From positions 1-38,361 of the forward strand of contig JAJXZT010000039.1 of NCBI GenBank assembly GCA_021779935.1: a DNA stretch of 38,361 nt, written 5' to 3'. Source of the stretch: Acidobacteriota bacterium (GTDB lineage Bacteria; Acidobacteriota; Terriglobia; Terriglobales; Acidobacteriaceae). Shown in pieces: positions 1,834-23,023 of the stretch. Position numbers and translations under genes: made by a program. The notes under the pieces were generated by a model. That model did not search any database. It saw nothing but the letters and a program-made list of their open reading frames with translations, and was not told the DNA's origin. Position 1 is the stretch's first letter. Each line of letters starts with the position of its first letter.

Positions 1834-1943
1834 CTGTTGTTGATTTTGTGCCGAGTGGAAAAATTCAACGCTCCGCCGGGTGCGGGCATCTTACATCCTT
1901 GGAAGTTGTGGAATACCGCCGAGGCGGTTCAAGTGAGGGACAC

Positions 1944-3392
1944 ATGGTGATGCGTGGCAAAAGTGCGCGGGTGCTGGCCCTGTTGCTGCTGATGTCGACC
2001 TGGAACCTGGTGTGTGCGGCGCAGGTGAACACGCGCGATCTCCAACAGGACAAGACGACCGGCCGCATCATCCTGACTGCTGGCGACGTCTCGATGAGCC
2101 CGCAGGATCAGATTCAGGCGGGACGTAAGTACGCTGCACAGGTCGCGCAGCAGATGCCGGTGCTACCAGAGTCGAGCCCGGTGACCAAGTACGTGCAGGC
2201 CCTGGGAAGGCGTCTGGCATTGAAGGCGCCGGGATACAAGTGGCCGTTCGAGTTCCGCGTCATCAACCAGAAAGACATCAACGCGTTTGCGTTGCCCGGC
2301 GGGCCCGTGTTCGTCAACCTCGGAACCATCCAGATGGCGGATGAGTCGGAACTGGCGGGCGTGATGGCCCACGAGATCAGCCACGTGGTGTTGCAGCACA
2401 CGGCGCGCGACGCGGGAAAAGAACAGACCATCCAGACGCTGGGCGCGCTCGGCAGCATCCTGGCTGGAGCCGTGTTCGGCAATACCGTTGGCGGACGGCT
2501 GGCGCAACTTGGCATACAGATTGGCGCCAGCGGAATCGCCATGAAGTATTCGCGTGCCGACGAGACGGAAGCCGACCTGCTGGGCTCGCAGATCATGTAC
2601 GACGCCGGCTACGATCCTTACGCCATGGTGGAGTTCTTCGACCAACTGGCGAAGCAGGGCGGGCCGGGAGTTCCGCAATTTCTGGCCGACCACCCGAACC
2701 CCGGCAATCGCGCGGAGACCGTGCGCTCGGCGATCGAGAAGTTTCCACGGAAGCAATTCGCGCGGCACGACAGCCCGGAGTTCGTCGCGATGAAACGCGT
2801 GGCGGATCACATGCACGCCATGACGCAGCCAGAGTTGGCACAGTACCAGAAGACGCACACGGCCGATCCGAACGCCAGCCAGCCGGTGAATACGGCGCTG
2901 AGCGATGTTATGCCCTCCGGCAATACTTCGCGCCTGGATCGGGATGCGTACTCCATTGAGTATCCGGACAACTGGCAGGTCTATGGCGCGCAGGGTTCGT
3001 CGGTGACGATTGCGCCGCAGGCCGGAGTCTCGCAGAATGCGGTCGCCTACGGAGCTTCCGTCAGCAGTATGTCGACCGCCAGCGGTACTTCGCTGGAGAC
3101 GGCGACGCGCCAGGTGATCGCCACGCTTGAACGCGAGAACCAGGGCATGAAGGCGATTGGCAGTGCGGAAAGAATTCGCGTCAACGGCGGAGATGGGCGG
3201 TCTGTTGACCTGACGGGAATTTCCCCGGTGCGCGACGCGAATGGCGGACAACTGGCGGAACGCGACTGGCTGGTGACCCTGCAACGCCACGACGGATCGA
3301 TTGTGTCCGTGGTGTTCACCGCTCCGCAGAAGGATTTCGATGCGCTGCGTCCGGCCTTTGAACATATGTTGAAAAGCTTGCGGCTGAAGTAG
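1944..3392 (+). CDS. secreted M48-family zinc metalloprotease
   Basis: The product is 482 aa. The start is set by an SD-like AGTGAGGGA at 1932-1940 and by the signal peptide that follows (ARVLALLLLMSTWNLVCAAQ); an ATG at 1950 is an equally usable start. The zinc site HEISH lies at residues 143-147, with the third ligand probably E207 in ADETEAD. This is the arrangement of BepA/Oma1/HtpX-like M48 peptidases. YKWPFEFRVINQKDINAFALPGG upstream of it is the usual M48B/C substrate-groove region. After about residue 315 comes an added domain of about 150 aa (YSIEYPDNWQVYG ... HMLKSLRLK), resembling PsbP/DUF1795-like folds. It probably degrades or refolds outer-membrane proteins in the periplasm. The gene stands alone, convergent with the histidine kinase gene downstream. 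Confidence 0.88.
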   Translation: MVMRGKSARVLALLLLMSTWNLVCAAQVNTRDLQQDKTTGRIILTAGDVSMSPQDQIQAGRKYAAQVAQQMPVLPESSPVTKYVQALGRRLALKAPGYKWPFEFRVINQKDINAFALPGGPVFVNLGTIQMADESELAGVMAHEISHVVLQHTARDAGKEQTIQTLGALGSILAGAVFGNTVGGRLAQLGIQIGASGIAMKYSRADETEADLLGSQIMYDAGYDPYAMVEFFDQLAKQGGPGVPQFLADHPNPGNRAETVRSAIEKFPRKQFARHDSPEFVAMKRVADHMHAMTQPELAQYQKTHTADPNASQPVNTALSDVMPSGNTSRLDRDAYSIEYPDNWQVYGAQGSSVTIAPQAGVSQNAVAYGASVSSMSTASGTSLETATRQVIATLERENQGMKAIGSAERIRVNGGDGRSVDLTGISPVRDANGGQLAERDWLVTLQRHDGSIVSVVFTAPQKDFDALRPAFEHMLKSLRLK

Positions 3393-11893: not shown

Positions 11894-12967
11894 ATGGACC
11901 ACCCGGCCCGTCTCCATCGGCTTCTCTTCGAACTCGAGCGCCGCAAGATTGACGCGCTACTTGTCACTCATCTTCCCAATGTCCGTTATCTCTGTGGATT
12001 CACCGGTAGCGCTGGCATCCTGCTCGCCGGCCGCCGTTCCGCCTTCTTCACCGATGGCCGTTACTCCGAGCAGTCGCGTTCTGAAGTCCAGGGAGCCCGT
12101 GTCGTCATTGGCAAGGGCCCCACGCTTGCCGTGGCAGCCCGGCACATCGGCCGCTCGCGCGTCGTCCGTCTTGGCATTGAGGCCGATCACCTGACCGTCG
12201 CCCTGCGCTCCCAGCTCGCTACGGAACTTGGCAAGGGCATCAAGCTCGTGCCCGTCAGCGGAGCCGTCGAAACCCTCCGCATGATCAAGGAGCCCGCCGA
12301 GATCGAAGCCATTCGTGAGGCCGTTAATCTCGCCGCACGACTCCTGGCACCTCTTCTTCGCGGAATCCGTCCCGGAGTCCCCGAGACCACCGTGGCCGCC
12401 CGTCTCGAATACATGGCGCGCCGTGCCGGAGCCGAGGGCATGTCGTTTGAAACCATCGTTGCTTCCGGCCCGCGCTCGGCCCTGCCGCATGGAGTCGCCT
12501 CTACTTCGCCCATCGCCCGTAACGGGTTCGTCGTTCTCGATTACGGTGTTATACTCAACGGTTATTGTTCCGATATGACGCGTACCGTATACGCTGGAAA
12601 GCCCGGCGAAGAGGAACGCGCCCTCTATCGCGCCGTGCTTGAGGCGCAGTTGGCTGCCATCACCGCTGTCACTCCGGGTTTGCCCGCCGGTGAGGTCGAT
12701 GAAGCCGCGCGTTCCGTCCTCAAGCGGGCCAGGCTGGCGAAGTTCTTTACCCACTCCACCGGACACGGCGTGGGTCTTGAAGTTCACGAAATGCCCCGTC
12801 TGGCTTTCCGGCAGGAACAGGTGTTGCAACCCGGCATGGTGGTCACGGTTGAACCCGGCGTCTACCTCCCCGGGCGTTGTGGTATCCGCATTGAAGACAT
12901 GGTGCTTGTCACCGAGCGTGGGTTTGAAGTGCTGACCCCCGCGACCAAGGATTTAATCGAACTCTGA
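11894..12967 (+). CDS. M24-family Xaa-Pro aminopeptidase
   Basis: The product is 357 aa. The N-terminal creatinase-like domain (about residues 1-125, VTHLPNVRYLCGFTGSAG) precedes the pita-bread M24 domain. Metal ligands are visible in LDYGVILNGYCSDMTRTVY (two Asp), STGHGVGLEVHE (His), TVEPGVYLPG (Glu) and RIEDMVLVT (Glu), so the enzyme looks intact. It would cleave N-terminal residues before proline in cytoplasmic peptides. An aroQ-pepP-efp-accB-accC order is common in other bacteria; here the peptidase leads directly to accB with neither aroQ nor efp. There is no Shine-Dalgarno; the start is supported by the -10 box at 11882. Confidence 0.92.
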   Translation: MDHPARLHRLLFELERRKIDALLVTHLPNVRYLCGFTGSAGILLAGRRSAFFTDGRYSEQSRSEVQGARVVIGKGPTLAVAARHIGRSRVVRLGIEADHLTVALRSQLATELGKGIKLVPVSGAVETLRMIKEPAEIEAIREAVNLAARLLAPLLRGIRPGVPETTVAARLEYMARRAGAEGMSFETIVASGPRSALPHGVASTSPIARNGFVVLDYGVILNGYCSDMTRTVYAGKPGEEERALYRAVLEAQLAAITAVTPGLPAGEVDEAARSVLKRARLAKFFTHSTGHGVGLEVHEMPRLAFRQEQVLQPGMVVTVEPGVYLPGRCGIRIEDMVLVTERGFEVLTPATKDLIEL

Positions 12968-13596: not shown

Positions 13597-14961
13597 ATGT
13601 TCAACAAGATCCTAATCGCTAATCGTGGAGAGATCGCGCTCCGTGTCATTTGTGCCTGCAAGGAACTGGGCATCAAAGCCGTCGCCGTTTATAGCGAGGC
13701 TGACCGCAATTCGCTGCACGTCCGTTTTGCCGACGAAGCCGTCTGCATAGGCCCGCCGCGTCCCTCGGACAGCTATCTCAACATCCCGGCCGTCATCAGC
13801 GCCGCTGAAATCGCCAACGTCGACGCCATTCATCCCGGCTACGGCCTGCTCAGCGAGAACGCCAACTTCGCCGAAGTCTGCGCCGCCTGTGGCATCAAGT
13901 TCATCGGCCCCCGCCCGGAAGTCATCCGCATGATGGGCGAGAAGGAAAAGGCGCGCATGGCCATGAAGAAGGCCGGCGTCCCCATCCTTCCCGGCTCCGA
14001 CGGCGTCATCGCTACTGCCGAAGAAGCGATCAAGTGGGCGCAGGAAGTCGGCTTCCCGGTCATCGTCAAGGCATCGGCCGGAGGCGGCGGCCGCGGCATG
14101 CGCGTCATCCGTTCCGCCGAAGAACTGCCCAACATGTTCAATGCCGCCCAAACCGAGGCCGCCAACGCCTTCGGCAATGGCGATCTCTACATGGAGAAGT
14201 TCATCGAGCGCCCGCGCCACATTGAGTTCCAGGTGCTGGCCGATGAATTCGGCAACGTCGTCTCGCTCGGCGAGCGCGAGTGCAGCATTCAGCGCCGCCA
14301 CCAGAAGCTGCTTGAAGAGTCGCCCTCTGTCGTCGTCACGCCTGAAATGCGCAAGGAGATCGGCGGCATCCTCGAAAAGACCATGCGCGAGATCGGCTAC
14401 TCCAACGCCGGCACCGTCGAGTTCCTCATGGACGAAGACGGCAAGCTCAACTTCATCGAGATGAACACGCGCATCCAGGTCGAGCACGCCGTCACCGAAA
14501 TGGTCACCGACGTCGATCTCGTCAAGAGCCAGATCATGATTGCCGCTGGCTATAAACTTCCCGATGTCCTCCACGGCCCCATCGTCCACCGCGGACACGC
14601 CATCGAGTGCCGCATCAACGCCGAGCACCCCGAGAAGTTCACCCCCTCGGCCGGCAAGATCACCACGTATCACATCCCCGGCGGCACCGGCGTCCGCGTC
14701 GATACCGCGCAGTACGCCGAAGGCGTCGTCCCGCCCTACTACGATTCGCTGATCGCCAAACTTGTGGTGCGTGGCAAGGACCGCGAGGAAGCCATCTCGC
14801 GTATGACGCGCGCCCTGGAAATGTTCATCGTCGAGGGAATCTTCACCAGCATCCCGCTCCACCAGCGCATCATGCGCGACCCCGACTTCCGTGCCGGCAA
14901 CTTCGACACGAAATTCATGGAGCGCTTCCTCGGCGAAAGCAACTTGAAGAACAAACACTAA
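13597..14961 (+). CDS. accC: biotin carboxylase subunit of acetyl-CoA carboxylase
   Basis: The product is 454 aa, the standard AccC length. The order is the pre-ATP-grasp domain ([24 protein letters not shown]), the ATP-grasp domain with the glycine-rich loop [14 protein letters not shown] and the ligand set in [16 protein letters not shown] (Glu, Asn, Arg), and the C-terminal domain with [13 protein letters not shown]. It carboxylates biotin on AccB using ATP and bicarbonate. The 120-nt accB-accC gap contains hairpins and no clear Shine-Dalgarno for accC. Confidence 0.96.
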
Positions 14962-15078: not shown

Positions 15079-15411
15079 CTATTCCGACGCGATCTTGAAC
15101 ATCGTCCTTGCCACACTCCCCGCGCTGGCCGTCTGATCGCAGTCGCACGAGCATTTTGGCGGCAGTGTTTGGTCGCAATCACACGAGCATGGTGGTGGCA
15201 CCGACTGATCGCAGTCACACGAGCACGGTGGCGGCACCGACTGATCGCAGTCACACGAGCATGGTGGCGGCACTGACTGGTCACAGTCGCATGAGCACGG
15301 TGGGGGTTGCGTCTGGTCGCAATCGCACGTGCAGGCGGCGACGCGGGATTCTTTGCCCACTTTGTCGTCCAGCGTAACGGCGCGAATTTGTGGAATTTCG
15401 AGAGTCGACAC
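15079..15411 (-). CDS. Cys-Asp repeat peptide, candidate radical-SAM-modified RiPP precursor
   Basis: The product is 110 aa from a GTG at 15411, fixed by an excellent GGAGG (15422-15418) 6 nt upstream. Residues 1-26 (MSTLEIPQIRAVTLDDKVGK and on) look like a leader. Residues 27-93 consist of six 12-residue units starting at C27, C39, C51, C63, C75 and C87, each CxCDCDQ followed mostly by a short Ser/Val/Pro-Pro-Pro spacer. The total is 18 Cys and 12 Asp. A 17-residue tail ends in SVARTMFKIASE. There is no signal peptide and no double-Gly site. The gene starts 15 nt after the SPASM enzyme stop, so the two are one operon. I infer a ribosomally made peptide whose Cys residues are cross-linked, perhaps to Asp, by the upstream enzyme. 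A metal-binding metallothionein-like role is the main alternative. I do not recognise a named family. Confidence 0.8.
   Translation of the reverse strand: MSTLEIPQIRAVTLDDKVGKESRVAACTCDCDQTQPPPCSCDCDQSVPPPCSCDCDQSVPPPCSCDCDQSVPPPCSCDCDQTLPPKCSCDCDQTASAGSVARTMFKIASE
15133..15333 (-). repeat. 36-bp coding tandem repeat, 6 units
   Basis: Six in-frame 36-bp units (the last incomplete) encode the CxCDCDQ modules. The units differ mainly at synonymous third positions (TGC/TGT, GAC/GAT, CAG/CAA, TCA/TCG), while every Cys, Asp and Gln of the motif is kept. Spacer residues vary only in the first and last units. Confidence 0.9.
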
Positions 15412-15426
15412 GGCAGTCCTCCGTTT

Positions 15427-16863
15427 CTATTGAGGGGCCTGGTTGACGGAAAAAACGGTTGTCTGTTCCGCGTGGCGCGGCTCGATCACTCCATCGGCCA
15501 CCCACGCGATGAGGGTTTTGTTGATGCGGTTGGCAATCTCGCAGCGATAGGGGTCCGGATGATACAAGTCGCGAGTGGAATATCGGAAGCTCTTGATCGG
15601 GCAGTCTCCCGCGCACTGGTAGCGCAGCAAGCACCCCTCGCAAGCTTTCATGTTTGAAGCCACGCGGCGCTTCAACGCCTCGATGCGCTGTTCGTCCAGC
15701 ACCACGCGCCGCTCCGCGACATCGACCCGGCCGATGAAGAACATGCTTGCCGCCGGGTCCGTTGCGTCCAGCACCTCGTAGCAGGTCGAGATGTCTCCAT
15801 CCGGCGTCACGCCGAAGTTGTGTCCGCACGCCGAGCAGAATCGCTGGCGGCAACGCTCGAAACAGTGAATGCCCGAGTACCCGACGTTGATGTCGTACCG
15901 CAGGCCCAGCAGAAAACACTTCAGAAACTTTTCCGTGAACTGTTCCACGTCAGGTCGCGAGACGGTACCGGAGGAGCCGCGTCCCGTCAGCGTTACCGGC
16001 TCGAAGCGAACTGCGGCCAGCCCCAGTTGCCGCGCCAGTTCCACCGTCTCTTCCATCGTCGCCAACGCCTCCCGGGTAATCGTCGCCCGAATGGAAACGT
16101 ATCTGCCCGCCTTCACCAGCGCCGCCAGGTTGCGTACCACCAGGTCGTAGCTCGGCGCGCCGGAGCGAAACGGCCGCTGGAGATTGTGGATGTCGCGCGG
16201 CCCGTCCAGGCTGAACGTCACTTGGATGTCGTTCTCGACGATCCACTGGTGCACGGCCTCGGCGTACGTGCCATTCGTGCCTAGCGTCACTGTCGTGCGC
16301 AGCCCTGCCCCGCGTGCCCGTTCGCGGAACTCCGCAACAATTTCTTTCAACGTGGCAAATTCCACCGTCGGCTCGCCGCCGCCGTGGATCGTCAGGTTCA
16401 CGCCGTGCCGCCGCGCGAACCGCCACGCCTCTCCCCACGCCAGCGTGGAGAAGAAGTGGTCCATCGCAATCTGCCAGACATCTTTGCGGATGGTTTTTCC
16501 GGAGTCTCCGCCGCGGGCATAGCAATAGGCACATTGAAGATTGCACTTCGAAGTCAGGAAGATCACCAGGCGAGTCATGGACGGCGCGTCTTGCGGCTCG
16601 CGGCTGGTGCCATTGCCGCCATCCTTGACTTCCACCAAAACACCGCGCTCGCGCAGATGCCTCGCAACATCCATCAGAGCCGCGCGATCATCGCCGGATA
16701 AGCCGGTAGGGAAGCCCGCTCCGTCCGGCTGTGTGAGGAACGCCAGCATCGCCTCATTCATCGAAGCGCAGGTGCGGCTTGCCGGATCGAACAGGTAAAG
16801 ACCGCCGTTGTGCCGGAACAAAGTCGCCAGCGGATTCAGAGCCAGCCGCGATGCAGGCGCCAT
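15427..16863 (-). CDS. radical SAM/SPASM peptide-maturase-like enzyme
   Basis: The product is 478 aa, with AGGTGAT 3 nt before the ATG at 16863. Residues 1-95 form an N-terminal domain (GGLYLFDPASRTCASMNEAM ... GVLVEVKDG) like the leader-binding/PqqD-type front part of peptide maturases. The radical SAM core follows, with the cluster motif C107-x3-C111-x2-C114 and GGGEPT at 161-166. The C-terminal SPASM part has C346-x14-C361, then C408-x2-C411-x5-C417-x3-C421, and C441. This is the full auxiliary-cluster pattern, with extra Cys at 334, 338 and 343. Such enzymes make thioether or C-C cross-links on ribosomal peptides. The next gene on the strand is the Cys-Asp repeat peptide, the obvious substrate. 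No transporter or protease gene is linked. Confidence 0.92.
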   Translation of the reverse strand: MAPASRLALNPLATLFRHNGGLYLFDPASRTCASMNEAMLAFLTQPDGAGFPTGLSGDDRAALMDVARHLRERGVLVEVKDGGNGTSREPQDAPSMTRLVIFLTSKCNLQCAYCYARGGDSGKTIRKDVWQIAMDHFFSTLAWGEAWRFARRHGVNLTIHGGGEPTVEFATLKEIVAEFRERARGAGLRTTVTLGTNGTYAEAVHQWIVENDIQVTFSLDGPRDIHNLQRPFRSGAPSYDLVVRNLAALVKAGRYVSIRATITREALATMEETVELARQLGLAAVRFEPVTLTGRGSSGTVSRPDVEQFTEKFLKCFLLGLRYDINVGYSGIHCFERCRQRFCSACGHNFGVTPDGDISTCYEVLDATDPAASMFFIGRVDVAERRVVLDEQRIEALKRRVASNMKACEGCLLRYQCAGDCPIKSFRYSTRDLYHPDPYRCEIANRINKTLIAWVADGVIEPRHAEQTTVFSVNQAPQ

Positions 16864-17020: not shown

Positions 17021-17581
17021 TCATTCCACAAAGAAGTCCTTCCACAACTCCAGCGTGGTCTCGTGGTACGCGCGATTTGATGCCCAATCCATTTCCGCGC
17101 GGAAGCGATCCTGCATCGTTTGGAAATGTAGTCCGAGCTTCTTGATCAGGAATTTTCCGTCTTCGCGATCCTTGCCGCTGTTGCGGAGCATCTTCGAAAG
17201 GAGCAGATCGTAGGGATCGAGAACGAAGAGCCGCACGTGTTTCATTTTCAGGTCCAATCCTTGGAGGCGTCCTTCGTATTCGATTGGCATCTCCACCGGT
17301 CCCGCGTAGTGAATGAATACGCCGTGCCTCCGTGCCAGTGCTGATTCCTGCCCTGCGATTTTCTCCAATTTCTCCGCTGTTCTCTTCGGCAACACTTCTA
17401 CGTAATCCAGGTCCGCCGTAACACGCGGAATGTCATAGAGTGCCTTCAGCACGAATCCGCCGATGCAATACAGAGTGACCTCTTCCGTGAGCTGCCTGTC
17501 CACATCTCTTAGAAATGGTCCCCACGGCTTCTCGCGCAGAAAACGCCGCAGTTCGTCGCTGTCGTCTTTCTTACCTCGCAT
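17021..17581 (-). CDS. nucleotidyltransferase-fold protein (AbiEii/DUF6036-like), toxin candidate
   Basis: The product is 186 aa. The pattern CIGGFVLKALYDIP ... TADLDYVEV (G41-G42 and D57-x-D59) is the GG-x(n)-DxD active-site signature of minimal/AbiEii-type nucleotidyltransferases. VRLFVLDPYDLLLSKMLRNSGKDREDG is the usual downstream helix of this group, as in AbiEii and DUF6036 proteins. Its start overlaps the end of the HTH gene by 11 nt, giving strict co-expression. By analogy with AbiE and MenAT systems it may modify tRNA or another nucleic acid and be neutralised or repressed by the partner. The toxin role is inference from fold and context. Confidence 0.75.
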   Translation of the reverse strand: MRGKKDDSDELRRFLREKPWGPFLRDVDRQLTEEVTLYCIGGFVLKALYDIPRVTADLDYVEVLPKRTAEKLEKIAGQESALARRHGVFIHYAGPVEMPIEYEGRLQGLDLKMKHVRLFVLDPYDLLLSKMLRNSGKDREDGKFLIKKLGLHFQTMQDRFRAEMDWASNRAYHETTLELWKDFFVE

Positions 17582-18263
17582 ATTGCAGCCACTCCGCCTT
17601 CCAGTCGGTCAGCAGATTCCAGTACTTCGCGTTTTCCGTGCGGTGTTCGCGAAGCCATTTCTGCTCCGCCTCCGTCATCGCGCTCTGTCCAAACGGTTCT
17701 TCCTGCGCCAGTCGTCCCCGGCCCAATTCTGTCAGCAATGCCGTCAGGGATTCCTTTTGCAAAAGCGAGGCTCTCCCGTCCTTCTGCGCCACTTCGCATG
17801 CGAGTGACACCACGAACCCAAGCCGGTTCGTGAGATTCCGCATCCTTGCCTCGCGCACCAGCCACTCGCGGTCCATCTCCGCGTAGTGCAGCACCAGCCA
17901 CGGCAATGCTTCGAACAATCTCGCTTCCAGTCCCTCCTGCGCCAGCGCACGCAGCAGCACCTCCGCCGGATTCCGCTTCCATGCCTTCTTCATGTAAGCA
18001 AATCCGGGATACCCCAGCGCCGCCAACTCCCGCGCCAGTTGCTCACCCGAGATTGGCTCCTCCACTCGCGATGCCGAAACTGGCAGCACCGTCGGCGAAA
18101 GCTTCATCACCCGCATCGCCTTGCTGGCCAGTTCTGGTGTCAGCGGACGCAGCCCTTTTTCCAGCAGGGACCAGTACGGCTGCGACACGCCGAGACGCTC
18201 TGCCGCGTTTTTCTGCGTCAAACCCAACTGCTTTCTTCTTGCCTTCAGTGCTTGCGCTACCAT
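17571..18263 (-). CDS. XRE-family HTH protein, antitoxin-like partner
   Basis: The product is 230 aa. Residues 1-60 form an XRE/Cro HTH (LKARRKQLGLTQKNAAERLG ... SQPYWSLLEKGLRPLTPELASKAMRVMKLS). The remaining 170 residues are helical, rich in Leu, Ala, Glu and Arg, with no domain I can name. It lies 5' of the nucleotidyltransferase gene and overlaps it by 11 nt, the order expected of an antitoxin/repressor followed by its toxin. The upstream dyad at 18291-18311 fits autorepression by the HTH domain. The region upstream is markedly AT-rich compared with the window. Confidence 0.82.
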   Translation of the reverse strand: MVAQALKARRKQLGLTQKNAAERLGVSQPYWSLLEKGLRPLTPELASKAMRVMKLSPTVLPVSASRVEEPISGEQLARELAALGYPGFAYMKKAWKRNPAEVLLRALAQEGLEARLFEALPWLVLHYAEMDREWLVREARMRNLTNRLGFVVSLACEVAQKDGRASLLQKESLTALLTELGRGRLAQEEPFGQSAMTEAEQKWLREHRTENAKYWNLLTDWKAEWLQYAR

Positions 18264-18652: not shown

Positions 18653-18687
18653 TCCGTGACAGTCGGTGGGGCTATTCCGGGTTCCTC

Positions 18688-19421: not shown

Positions 19422-19449
19422 ATGACTCGTGACTAATGACTCGCGACTT
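19422..19449. repeat. heptanucleotide tandem repeat (4 x 7 bp)
   Basis: There are four units in register of the form NNGACTN: ATGACTC, GTGACTA, ATGACTC and GCGACTT. It follows directly after the palindromic element and ends 15 nt before the TTG start of the permease gene. Confidence 0.85.
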
Positions 19450-19464
19450 TTTCCAAGGAGTCCC

Positions 19465-21015
19465 TTGACCCAGGAAACCGAAACCGTCATCGCCACTGAA
19501 AACGCGCCGCAGGACGCCGGACTCGTCAAGGGTCTTGGCCTTACCAGCGCCACCATGCTTGTCATGGGTTCCATGATCGGCTCCGGAGTCTTCATCGTCG
19601 CCGCCGACATTGCGCGTACCGTGCAGTCTCCCGCGCTGCTCGTCGGAGCATGGCTCATCACCGGCTTCATGACCATCGTCGGCGCCCTCGCCTATGGCGA
19701 GCTCGCCGGCATGATGCCGCACGCTGGAGGCCAGTACGTCTATCTCCGCGAGTCTCTTGGCCCGCTCTCCGGGTTCCTCTATGGCTGGACGTTCTTCCTC
19801 GTCATTCAGTGCGGCACCATTGCCGCCGTCGGCGTTGCCTTTGGAAAATTCCTCGGTGTCTTCTTCCCGTCGATTTCCGCCGACCACTGGATTCTCCATC
19901 TCTGGAAGGTTCCACCCATCCCCGTCGGCCCCATGGTTCTCGGCAACATGGATGTGGGCCTCAACACGCAGAACCTCGTCGCCATCCTTGGCGTCATACT
20001 GCTCTCGGTGGTGAACATCTACGGCGTCAAGACCGGCGCCATCATCCAGAACATCTTCACCTTCGCCAAGACCGCCGCCTTGCTTGGCCTGGTGCTCCTG
20101 GGTGTCTTCGTGGGAGCCAATCACGCGGCCATTCTCGCCAACTTCGGCGCCAACTTCTGGAAGAACGCCTCGCTCGGCTCGCTGCATGTCATCCCCGTGG
20201 GCCTCGCCGGAGCCACTGCCGCCGTCGGCACCATCACCGTGCTTGCCATTGCGCAGGTCGGCTCTCTCTTCTCCGCCGACGCCTGGAACTCCGTCACCTT
20301 CACGGCCGCCGAGGTCAAGAATCCGTCGCGCAACTTGCCTCTCTCGCTCGCCATTGGCACCGCCAGCGTCATCCTTCTCTATATCGCCGCCAACGTCGTC
20401 TACCTGCTCGCGCTGCCGCTCTTCGGCGATCCCCATAGCATGACGCTCATGGGCCGCGGCATTCAGTACGCCTCCGAGGACCGCGTTGCCACCGCCGTCA
20501 TGCAGTCCATGTTCGGCTTCACCGGAGCCAAGCTGATGGCCATCGCCATCCTTGTTTCCACCTTCGGATGCAACAACGGCCTCATCCTCTCCGGAGCCCG
20601 CGTCTATTACGCCATGGCCAAGGACGGACTCTTCTTCAAGTCCGTCGCCCGCCTCCATCCCAAGTACAAAACGCCCGCCGTCTCGCTTGGCGTGCAAGCC
20701 ATCTGGACCTGCGTCCTCTGTCTCAGCGGCTCTTACAGCCAGTTGCTCGACTACACCATGTTTGCCGTTCTCATCTTCTACATCATGACGCTCGGCGGCA
20801 TCTTCGTGTTGCGTCGCACCCGGCCCGATGCTCCGCGTCCGTACAAGGCCATCGGTTATCCTGTTCTGCCTGCCATTTACATTTTGATGGCGGTCTTCAT
20901 TGATGTAGTCTTGTTGCGCTACAAACCCCAGTACACGTGGCCGGGCCTGATCATTGTTCTGCTTGGGATTCCGGTCTACTTCTGGTGGTCGCGCAAGAAC
21001 GCCCAGACGGCCTAG
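19465..21015 (+). CDS. APC-superfamily amino acid permease
   Basis: The product is 516 aa from TTG at 19465, chosen because AAGGAG (19455-19460) lies 4 nt upstream; an ATG at 19429 would start inside the heptad repeat. The first helix, ATMLVMGSMIGSGVFIVAADIA, carries the GSGxF unwound substrate-binding motif of APC transporters. GALAYGELAGMMPHAGGQYVYLRESLGP is the conserved TM2-loop-TM3 signature. About 12 TM helices can be drawn. VFKIIGYPVLP-like residues (PYKAIGYPVLPAIYI) near the C terminus are typical of LAT/SteT-like exchangers. The substrate is probably an amino acid, not specified further. A second APC gene follows in the same direction after 88 nt. Confidence 0.9.
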   Translation: MTQETETVIATENAPQDAGLVKGLGLTSATMLVMGSMIGSGVFIVAADIARTVQSPALLVGAWLITGFMTIVGALAYGELAGMMPHAGGQYVYLRESLGPLSGFLYGWTFFLVIQCGTIAAVGVAFGKFLGVFFPSISADHWILHLWKVPPIPVGPMVLGNMDVGLNTQNLVAILGVILLSVVNIYGVKTGAIIQNIFTFAKTAALLGLVLLGVFVGANHAAILANFGANFWKNASLGSLHVIPVGLAGATAAVGTITVLAIAQVGSLFSADAWNSVTFTAAEVKNPSRNLPLSLAIGTASVILLYIAANVVYLLALPLFGDPHSMTLMGRGIQYASEDRVATAVMQSMFGFTGAKLMAIAILVSTFGCNNGLILSGARVYYAMAKDGLFFKSVARLHPKYKTPAVSLGVQAIWTCVLCLSGSYSQLLDYTMFAVLIFYIMTLGGIFVLRRTRPDAPRPYKAIGYPVLPAIYILMAVFIDVVLLRYKPQYTWPGLIIVLLGIPVYFWWSRKNAQTA

Positions 21016-21103
21016 CCCACGGCCCCTGGTCGTCACTGGCGGTTCGCCGTTGACGGCGCCTCCGCCGGAGCGTCTTTAAGCAAGTCTAAGGAGAACACCT
21101 CGG

Positions 21104-23023
21104 ATGTCGAAGCTTTTGGCCACCAAGCCTTTGGATATGCTGCTGGCCGAGGCGGGCGAAACAGGCGAACACAGCCTGAAACGCACCCTCGGTCCAATCA
21201 ATCTCATCACCCTTGGCATCGGAGCCATCATCGGTGCTGGCATTTTCGTGTTGACCGGCTCTGCCGCCGCGCAATACGCCGGCCCGGCGATCGTCCTCTC
21301 GTTCATCTTTGCCGGTGTCGCCTGCGCCTTTGCCGGACTGTGCTACTCCGAATTTGCCTCGCTCATCCCCATCGCCGGTTCTGCTTACACCTACGGCTAC
21401 GCCACCCTCGGTGAGCTCTTCGCCTGGATCATCGGCTGGGACCTCATCCTTGAATATGCCTTTGGCGCCGCCACTGTGGCCTCCGGTTGGAGCGGTTATC
21501 TCGTCAGCTTCCTTCAGGACTTCGGCATCCATCTTCCGCCGCGGCTTATCGCCACGCCCGGCACCGACCTTGTGCTTTACAACAATCGTTGGGAGATCCT
21601 CACCAAGGTCCTCCCCGACTTGCAGGCCGCGCACATCGATCCCGCCACGCTGCCGCATGTGCATGCTCTCTTCAATCTCGTGGCTTTTGTCGCGATTGCC
21701 ATCGTCACCACGATTCTTGTCATCGGCATCAAGGAGTCCGCGAACTTCAACTCTGCCATCGTGATCGTCAAGGTTGCGATCGTGCTGGTCTTTATCGCCA
21801 TTGCCGGGCAGTTCGCTCTTGCCCATCCGCAGCTCGTCGCCCACAACTGGCATCCCTTCATCCCGAAAAATCTCGGCGCATTCGGCGAGTATGGATGGTC
21901 GGGCATTGCGCGCGCCGCTGGCGTCATCTTCTTCGCCTATATCGGCTTTGACGCCGTCTCCACCGCCGCGCAGGAAGCCCGCAATCCGCAGCGCGACATG
22001 CCCATCGGCATTCTCGGCTCGCTCGTCATCTGCACCATCCTTTACATCATCGTCTCCGGACTGCTCACTGGCGTCGTCTCCTACACCGCGCTCAATGTTT
22101 CTGACCCGGTCGCCGTCGGCATCGATGCCACCGGCATCCGCTGGGGCAGCTTCCTCGTCAAGCTCGGAGCCATTGCCGGACTCGGCAGCGTCATGCTCGT
22201 CATGTTGCTCGGACAGTCCCGCGTCTTCTATTCCATGTCGCGTGACGGACTCCTGCCCAAGTGGGCCGGCACCGTTCATCCGCGCTTCCGCACGCCCTAC
22301 ATCTCGTCGATCACCGTGGGCATCTTCGTCGCCATCTTCGCGTCGTTGATCCCCATCGGAATCCTCGGAGAACTGGTTTCCATCGGAACCCTGCTGGCGT
22401 TTGTCATCGTCTGCGCCGGCGTCTGGGTCTTGCGAGTGCGCAAACCCGAACTGCATCGCCCCTTCAAGACGCCGTGGGTCCCCTTCGTCCCCATCATGGG
22501 TATCGTGGTCTCCCTCGCGCTGATGGCCAGCCTCCCGCTCGACACCTGGTTGCGCCTCATTATCTGGCTTGAACTCGGCATGTTCATCTTCTTTTCTTAC
22601 AGTGAGAGCCATAGCCGCGTGCAAGCTTTGCATGGTCCTCCGGCCAAGCTCCCCACTGCTACTGCGAACATGGGTCTTGGAATCTTGGGGTCATGTCTTC
22701 TGATAGCTGGGACATTCCTTCCGTTTGCCTCTTTTGCAGAGAGTGGAAGCATGAGCTGCTGGACTTACTCGATCGGCCTTGCGCTTGCTGTGCTGGGAGT
22801 AGTGCTAAATTCGGTTTTGTTTGCATTCACCGGGCGTTACGTCCATCAATGGTTTACCGGTGGCGGTGCTGTATTGATTACGGTGCTGACAGCGATAATC
22901 GCGTACCACTCTGCGGGTTTTGCGCATTTTCAGGTGGCAATGCTTGTGCTGATTATCGGTGCGGCTCTCTTGGTGATCTCCGCCGTGGTTGGTCCAGCCT
23001 TAGCACAGCCTTCCGGCGACTAA
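21104..23023 (+). CDS. APC amino acid permease (CAT/YfnA-like) with extra C-terminal 4-helix domain
   Basis: The product is 639 aa, about 140 longer than usual for this family. TAAGGAG precedes the ATG at 21104. The start MLLAEAGETGEHSLKRTLGPINLITLGIGAIIGAGIFVLTG and FDAVSTAAQEARNPQRDMPIGI are signatures of cationic-amino-acid-type permeases. Residues 1-500 give the usual 12 helices and end at FFSYSESHSRV, where most relatives stop. From about residue 510 (22630) come four further hydrophobic segments (GLGILGSCLLIAGTFLPFASF, WTYSIGLALAVLGVVLNSVLF, AVLITVLTAIIAYHS, FQVAMLVLIIGAALLVISAV). There the codon choice visibly shifts away from the C-ending codons used before. I infer a fused membrane module. 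Confidence 0.9.
   Translation: MSKLLATKPLDMLLAEAGETGEHSLKRTLGPINLITLGIGAIIGAGIFVLTGSAAAQYAGPAIVLSFIFAGVACAFAGLCYSEFASLIPIAGSAYTYGYATLGELFAWIIGWDLILEYAFGAATVASGWSGYLVSFLQDFGIHLPPRLIATPGTDLVLYNNRWEILTKVLPDLQAAHIDPATLPHVHALFNLVAFVAIAIVTTILVIGIKESANFNSAIVIVKVAIVLVFIAIAGQFALAHPQLVAHNWHPFIPKNLGAFGEYGWSGIARAAGVIFFAYIGFDAVSTAAQEARNPQRDMPIGILGSLVICTILYIIVSGLLTGVVSYTALNVSDPVAVGIDATGIRWGSFLVKLGAIAGLGSVMLVMLLGQSRVFYSMSRDGLLPKWAGTVHPRFRTPYISSITVGIFVAIFASLIPIGILGELVSIGTLLAFVIVCAGVWVLRVRKPELHRPFKTPWVPFVPIMGIVVSLALMASLPLDTWLRLIIWLELGMFIFFSYSESHSRVQALHGPPAKLPTATANMGLGILGSCLLIAGTFLPFASFAESGSMSCWTYSIGLALAVLGVVLNSVLFAFTGRYVHQWFTGGGAVLITVLTAIIAYHSAGFAHFQVAMLVLIIGAALLVISAVVGPALAQPSGD

Follow-up and report, generated by a model that had tools for sequence, protein, structure and literature searches.

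The question raised by this locus is whether a radical S-adenosylmethionine (SAM)/SPASM enzyme and the small cysteine-rich peptide encoded directly behind it form a working pair and, if so, what the enzyme does to the peptide. Both genes lie in a stretch of 38,361 nucleotides (nt) from an Acidobacteriota bacterium of the family Acidobacteriaceae (contig JAJXZT010000039.1, positions 1 to 38,361; assembly GCA_021779935.1), called here the window. On balance we favour a two-gene module for a ribosomally synthesized and post-translationally modified peptide (RiPP), in which a SPASM enzyme, perhaps ranthipeptide-like and guided by a RiPP recognition element (RRE), joins Cys residues of the peptide to nearby Asp or Glu. 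We infer that the peptide is the substrate of the enzyme, as well as the thioether chemistry, the acceptors and the ring size. The features concerned, with the evidence for each open reading frame (ORF) or motif, are:

15427-16863, minus strand: radical SAM/SPASM enzyme, 478 amino acids (aa), putative peptide maturase (ORF, family and orthologue evidence)
16579-16863, minus strand: RRE-like (PqqD-like) domain, N-terminal 95 residues of the enzyme (AlphaFold2 (AF2) model and fold matches)
16522-16545, minus strand: radical SAM 4Fe-4S motif CNLQCAYC, C107, C111 and C114 (motif read)
15541-15828, minus strand: SPASM cysteines C346, C361, C408, C411, C417, C421 and C441 (spacing, alignment, 5wgg)
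15079-15411, minus strand: precursor-like peptide, 110 aa, 18 Cys, GTG start
15418-15422, minus strand: GGAGG ribosome-binding site, inside the 15-nt intergenic gap
15370-15393, minus strand: leader motif PQIRAVTL, family form PxIRxV[ST]L (common to three of three peptides)
15133-15333, minus strand: six CxCDCDQ units with a 12-aa period (repeat analysis)
15088-15108, minus strand: C-terminal motif RTMFKIA, family form RTxFKIA (also in the Methylocystis peptide)

The peptide gene begins 15 nt past the TAG stop of the enzyme. An earlier note on this DNA, made from its letters alone, had described both genes, and its coordinates, strand and reading frames are right. The same holds for the 110-aa peptide with its GGAGG, 15-nt gap, Cys-free 26-residue front and six 12-residue units, and for the enzyme motifs C107-x3-C111-x2-C114, C408-x2-C411-x5-C417-x3-C421 and C441, all of which are present. 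The SPASM signature consists of seven cysteines (CX9-15GX4C - CX2CX5CX3C - C). The enzyme also contains C346-x9-G-x4-C361, absent from the list in the note, and with this addition the seven-Cys set is complete. The C-x9-G-x4-C and C-x2-C-x5-C-x3-C elements have the same spacing in all three orthologous enzymes described below, C441 is invariant and the SPASM region aligns to PDB entry 5wgg. The radical SAM domain itself is matched by PF04055 (E 1.1e-12; 48.9 bits with a cut-off of 29.5). By its architecture, we class this as a RiPP-type radical SAM/SPASM system outside the PapB, QhpD and SCIFF families, as the enzyme scores below the cut-offs of their models. The enzymes share other cysteines outside the cluster motifs: Cys32, in a TCASMNE stretch of the RRE-like domain (residues 31-37; window 16753-16773, minus strand), is invariant in the three, as are C316, C334 and C343.

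The pair recurs. When 84,980 species genomes were scanned with the enzyme, a procedure that detects close relatives only, there were 15 matches to the pattern, a single one of them an orthologue; it comes from a Fibrobacteres metagenome-assembled genome (MAG) from a bog (L024). This enzyme is 58-59% identical to that of the window over the full alignment. Its contig stops 225 nt past the enzyme stop, and a peptide ORF starts 15 nt past the same stop: it reads MFENERPEIRIVSLNEK..., then CDCDD, CSCDEG, CDGDC and CRSE, and is incomplete at the contig end. A tblastn search of 72,556 plasmids with the enzyme matched 133 records, one of them at more than 60% identity (9 of the 19 weaker plasmid matches listed were used for comparison). 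This is a Methylocystis iwaonis plasmid (L045), whose enzyme is 62.7% identical over residues 1-472; 32 nt behind it lies a 128-aa ORF (MVPKIRLVTLSQR...FRTFFKIAGDKS) with 19 Cys. In the plasmid's gene table (PLSDB), which is incomplete, the enzyme appears simply as 'radical SAM protein' and there is no entry for the peptide gene. A peptide rich in Cys, Asp and Glu is therefore found directly downstream of the enzyme in three of three orthologous loci, with gaps of 15, 15 and 32 nt. In a maximum-likelihood tree of 35 enzymes, the three form one clade with support 100/99 (35 of 36 rows were used, L054 being left out as it had no ORF fitting the motif filter). The nearest other row by path, L025, is 3.29 changes per column away, and its place as sister has a support of only 89/85.

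The possibility that the two genes are adjacent by chance, the radical SAM gene being an orphan and the repeat ORF unrelated to it, is helped only by the fact that close relatives provide no comparison, since the clade occurs in a single genome (that of the host) among 398 of the host's family at E 1e-60 and the next score in a 396-genome sample of the phylum is 197 bits, compared with 1018 for the enzyme itself. Against it, the pair recurs in two distant organisms with a matching peptide front and, in one of them, a matching tail, and the repeat codons are under purifying selection (see below). We consider this explanation strongly disfavoured. The pairing proposed in the earlier note thus stands: it is found in all orthologous loci, with a conserved front and an RRE-like domain that could read this front, and the conclusion that it is not accidental is well supported by the comparison. 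The clade appears to be rare. It was absent elsewhere among 100 genomes (best other match 163.6 bits, compared with 1107.9) and among 167 genomes of the phylum of the Fibrobacteres MAG (164 compared with 1011 bits). Enzyme matches in a phage collection were all below 31% identity among the best 20 of 26, those in viral contigs were distant (no more than 28% identity) and a second viral search gave none.

Two observations concern the Fibrobacteres locus. In the 21-nt segment running from the stop of the enzyme to the start of the peptide (window 15409-15429; L024:7420-7440), the two loci agree at 15 positions, including GGAG and ACTGCC. Upstream of the enzyme, at a distance of 178 nt, is a 197-aa acidic ORF without a Pfam match (L024:5229-5822, plus strand). 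It contains Ser/Asp/Asn repeats followed by two long repeats ending in VPEIRPDD, which echo the PEIR of the leader. This could be coincidence or a second partner.

What, then, defines the peptide family? All three peptides carry PxIRxV[ST]L in their front, and both complete ones (window and Methylocystis) also have the tail RTxFKIA. Shuffled leaders matched as well in 3 of 5000 cases for window and Methylocystis and in 0 of 5000 for each of the other two pairs (window-Fibrobacteres and Methylocystis-Fibrobacteres); for the tail, window against Methylocystis, 0 of 5000 shuffles were as good. Each motif is present in only two of 2,595 ORFs over 359 kb, which are the two complete peptides (the contig-cut Fibrobacteres peptide is absent from this list). 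The cores, on the other hand, do not align as repeats: those of Methylocystis and Fibrobacteres are irregular, although rich in Cys and acidic residues. The earlier note had tied a candidate RiPP class to the six-fold CxCDCDQ repeat, and as a hallmark the repeat did not survive the comparison. The exact repeat is confined to the window copy and, as the orthologous cores diverge, would be a local elaboration. Judged from these three members, the family is marked by its front motif, by the RTxFKIA tail and by a core in which CxC and Cys followed by an acidic residue are abundant. A conserved leader with a variable core is the pattern of a RiPP precursor.

In the window peptide, the first Cys is residue 27. 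The Cys-free front is followed by six C-S/T-C-D-C-D-Q units spaced exactly 12 residues apart, mostly with Pro-rich spacers, and then by a Cys-free tail (Tandem Repeats Finder identifies 5.9 copies of 36 nt). Comparing the six units pairwise over the 7-aa motif gives 46 nucleotide differences, of which 41 are at third codon positions and the other five represent the Thr/Ser change at position x. Excluding the x codon, all 10 departures from the unit consensus are synonymous, and none of 5000 random placements was as good. On this codon evidence, the repeat units are kept by purifying selection on the protein and are not due to chance.

Such a protein might also be a metallothionein-like metal binder, with CxC and acidic residues as ligands and with an enzyme that acts elsewhere or only tunes the peptide. 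CxC is a common metal-thiolate motif, the core drifts while its Cys and acidic character persist, and no exporter is linked. This explanation does not account for the linkage of all three peptides to one radical SAM clade or for the conserved Cys-free front, which is what an RRE-bearing enzyme would need, and we regard it as improbable.

Whether the enzyme could recognize that front depends on its N-terminus. The AF2 model of the full-length enzyme was poor (predicted local distance difference test score (pLDDT) 42) and was left out of the fold search. Residues 1-95 modelled alone gave a mean pLDDT of 66.7 and a fold of four strands followed by two helices and a final strand. With Foldseek, ranks 1-10 were all RRE domains or chains holding one (probability 0.95-1.00; E 0.019-0.15), including a lasso B1 protein with leader peptide, the PbtF RRE and 5wgg/5why. 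With VIA-align, ranks 1-11 were mostly RRE domains or RRE-holding chains (Z 6.2-7.9; the tool's caution line is 8), with TigE, ThcOx and PqqD among them. In this count we take the lasso B1, ThcOx, MibB and CteB chains to hold RREs. A Pfam search of the domain gave no PqqD match. None of the matches is strong by itself, yet together they point the same way, and with moderate confidence we consider an RRE likely at the N-terminus.

In the RiPP reading that we favour, this RRE-like domain would bind the product of the adjacent peptide gene by its PxIRxV[ST]L front and keep the core, rich in Cys and Asp (or Glu), at the active site. There, 5'-deoxyadenosyl radical chemistry from the radical SAM cluster, assisted by the auxiliary clusters of the SPASM domain, would join Cys sulfurs to carbons of nearby residues, the likeliest acceptors being Asp or Glu shortly after the Cys. 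As a first guess, the spacing would be CX2[DE] (C1 to D4 and C3 to D6 in each CSCDCDQ unit), giving up to 12 thioethers and one spare Cys per unit. With two CX2D links per unit, all 12 core Asp would be used and six thiols would be free. The RTxFKIA tail would be kept for recognition or for a later step.

This choice of spacing follows the cores themselves. CX2[DE] and CX0[DE] are the most over-represented of the forward spacings 0-8 in all three. CX2[DE] applies to 12 of 18 Cys in the window, 11 of 19 in Methylocystis and 4 of 8 in Fibrobacteres (shuffles as high: 0, 1 and 175 of 5000, respectively), and CX0[DE] to 12, 10 and 4 Cys (0, 25 and 215 of 5000). CX3[DE] applies to 0 of 18, 1 of 19 and 2 of 8. 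The excerpts of PMC9413430 report that PapB accepts Cys-Xn-Asp with n = 0-6 in vitro, and also that CX1D to CX5D were completed and CX0D was not. On the first of these excerpted statements, the tight Cys/Asp triad does not exclude PapB-type chemistry, and on the second, CX2 is favoured over CX0.

Comparison with curated models provides evidence for and against this assignment. For the window enzyme, 74 NCBIfam models match, and the figures given here are from the 25 of them listed; it is far below the cut-off for all 25. The best is PapB (NF047865; 129.3 bits, cut-off 340), followed by a nif11-type maturase (113), QhpD (TIGR03906; 107, cut-off 453) and SCIFF (TIGR03974; 104.9, cut-off 425), and these four models match all three clade members. 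At E 1e-10, 38 models match clade members, the lowest E being that of PapB (3.8e-38). Relatives at approximately 30% identity, sampled from the phylum of the host, include genuine QhpDs: two (L006 and L010) score 562 and 567 on TIGR03906, with QhpC (NF037958) adjoining. QhpC-like genes lie beside QhpD-like genes at five loci (L004, L006, L010, L011 and L036, the last from the host's family), of which two are confirmed by the models, and in some relatives two or three radical SAM/SPASM genes are grouped within a span of 7 kb (G215:C3:42325-48827 and G127:C111:3911-10632).

The same RiPP pair could therefore carry out another chemistry (sactionines, links to residues other than Asp or Glu, C-C links or another radical change), with the acidic residues serving for solubility or metal binding. 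The distance of the clade from every curated family seen, with none of the 25 of 74 listed models at cut-off, is in its favour, as is the excess of Cys (18) over core Asp (12) in the window peptide. On the other side are the position of PapB as the best model, matching all three members, and the fact that each of the three cores has acidic residues at short, fixed distances behind Cys. We consider this explanation rather unlikely, though it is the most serious of the rivals.

Several results weigh against the RRE-guided, Cys-to-Asp/Glu reading and must be set beside those above. The two true QhpDs reach 285 and 269 bits on the PapB model, compared with 129 for the window enzyme. This places the clade further from proven thioether formers than the QhpDs are (a point which also speaks for another chemistry), and the reaction may differ from that of PapB and QhpD. 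As excerpted, a review (PMC8172795) that is earlier than PMC9413430 states that PapB mostly failed on CX2D and was strict for CX3D. The choice between CX2 and CX0 is weak because the two spacings are entangled through CxC, and Cys outside CxC show CX2[DE] in only 4 of 10 cases in Methylocystis and 2 of 5 in Fibrobacteres. The RRE model has a pLDDT of only 67 with no Foldseek match below E 0.001 and all Z below 8, and unrelated chains stand just behind the RRE matches in VIA-align (a methyltransferase at Z 6.1 and GdmN at Z 5.9). Neither in the window, as the earlier note had remarked, nor in the gene table of the Methylocystis plasmid does a dedicated exporter or protease adjoin the pair. The known members number only three. 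Finally, no peptide homologues that regularly occur without a radical SAM gene were found, but by peptide-only searches, which are insensitive: a search with the window peptide at a threshold as loose as E 1 missed the Fibrobacteres peptide in the very MAG that encodes it, and one at E 0.01 missed the Methylocystis peptide among plasmids. Such searches gave one plasmid record for the window peptide (in a Marinobacter helix-turn-helix (HTH) gene), only itself for the Methylocystis peptide among plasmids, and no match in viral contigs. Two weak matches of the window peptide among the 396 genomes (L022 and L023) were rejected as noise from their reading frames.

The pair can also be set beside known systems. 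PapB/PapA (freyrasin, a ranthipeptide) likewise combines a SPASM enzyme with a short peptide of repeated Cys and Asp; PapA uses CX3D, whereas CX2[DE] and CX0[DE] prevail in the three cores here, and the two complete peptides have an extra conserved C-terminal tail. QhpD/QhpC is another SPASM enzyme adjoining a Cys/Asp protein. According to the excerpts of PMC8172795 and PMC11002830, QhpD installs Cys-Asp/Glu thioethers in QhpC, the gamma subunit of quinohemoprotein amine dehydrogenase (QHNDH). No QHNDH subunits were seen beside the present pair, and the window peptide is unlike QhpC, without an NF037958 match at E 1. For SCIFF maturases, the closest solved structure by sequence is 5wgg (E 2.8e-23 with a three-member profile). 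Both 5wgg and 5why, which we take to be CteB, also combine radical SAM and SPASM domains, and their N-terminal domain is among the fold matches of the window enzyme; the window peptide, in contrast, is not of the six-Cys-in-45 type. Other SPASM maturases are named for Cys-repeat or Cys-rich targets, namely CefB Cys-every-fifth (NF038107), CXXX-repeat (TIGR04115) and TIGR04463. The window enzyme scores 78, 69 and 65 bits on these (cut-offs 600, 350 and 525) and the repeat patterns differ by name. A screen for small ORFs beside more distant enzymes (36 loci, some overlapping, taking the enzyme ORF nearest the locus centre and same-strand ORFs no longer than 200 aa that lie within 1 kb and have at least 4 Cys or a leader-like motif) gave none with a CxCD repeat.

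A more far-reaching proposal is that the pair belongs to a new class of RiPPs, whose SPASM enzymes, a distinct clade, would staple overlapping CX2[Asp/Glu] thioethers onto a tandem-repeat scaffold, leaving one regularly spaced free thiol per unit. The product would be an intracellular mobile thiol or metal array that requires no protease, with the RTxFKIA tail docking to a cell component. We give this only a small chance.

How did the pair reach this genome? The remaining features of the locus are:

17021-17581, minus strand: DUF6036 nucleotidyltransferase-like protein (Pfam)
17571-18263, minus strand: HTH protein (Pfam)

In the window, accC (ending at 14961) and thiE (starting at 18666) are 3.7 kb apart, and the interval holds four minus-strand genes together with an 89-aa plus-strand ORF without a Pfam match. 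Among 31 genomes, 28 have accC, and the loci of 14 relatives besides the window's own were read: thiE lies within 1.5 kb behind accC in 11 of these, and the enzyme, DUF6036 and HTH genes are within 1.5 kb behind accC in none. From this comparison, the pair and its neighbours look inserted between accC and thiE. The DUF6036 and HTH genes are probably outside the enzyme-peptide pair, though part of the same insertion; none so named or read occurs beside the other two enzymes, where no homology search was made. The DUF6036 gene overlaps the upstream HTH gene in a toxin-antitoxin-like layout. The GC content (0.625 for the enzyme, 0.607 for the peptide) does not set the two genes apart from their neighbours (near 0.6), and only DUF6036 is lower (0.537). 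On its other strand, the window encodes peptidases of families M24 (11894-12967) and M48 (1848-3392) and a pair of amino-acid permeases (19429-23023), all of which we take as housekeeping genes.

The Methylocystis copy has a recombinase gene and conjugation-type genes in its vicinity, on a plasmid typed as non-mobilizable. The insertion, the plasmid setting and the scatter over distant hosts favour horizontal transfer. The phylum of the host, whose sample was taken from more than 396 genomes, differs from that of the Fibrobacteres MAG, which comprised 167 in all. With the host of the window counted as an acidobacterium, as its gene content suggests, the pair would be carried in three phyla.

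No published description of the pair was found in the open-licence literature searched. The results add an enzyme clade and a precursor family for which no curated model was found among the 25 of 74 matching NCBIfam models listed. Its three natural cores, read by close enzymes, form a test set for how a SPASM maturase chooses the partner of its Cys and the size of the ring. The RTxFKIA tail is unexpected in a simple leader-core precursor and its role is testable. If CX2[DE] stapling is true, the enzymes would be tools for making multiply stapled repeat peptides. As far as can be judged at the sequence level, this rare pair, found here and there in soil and bog bacteria that are only distantly related, seems to represent a new family of peptides tailored by an enzyme.

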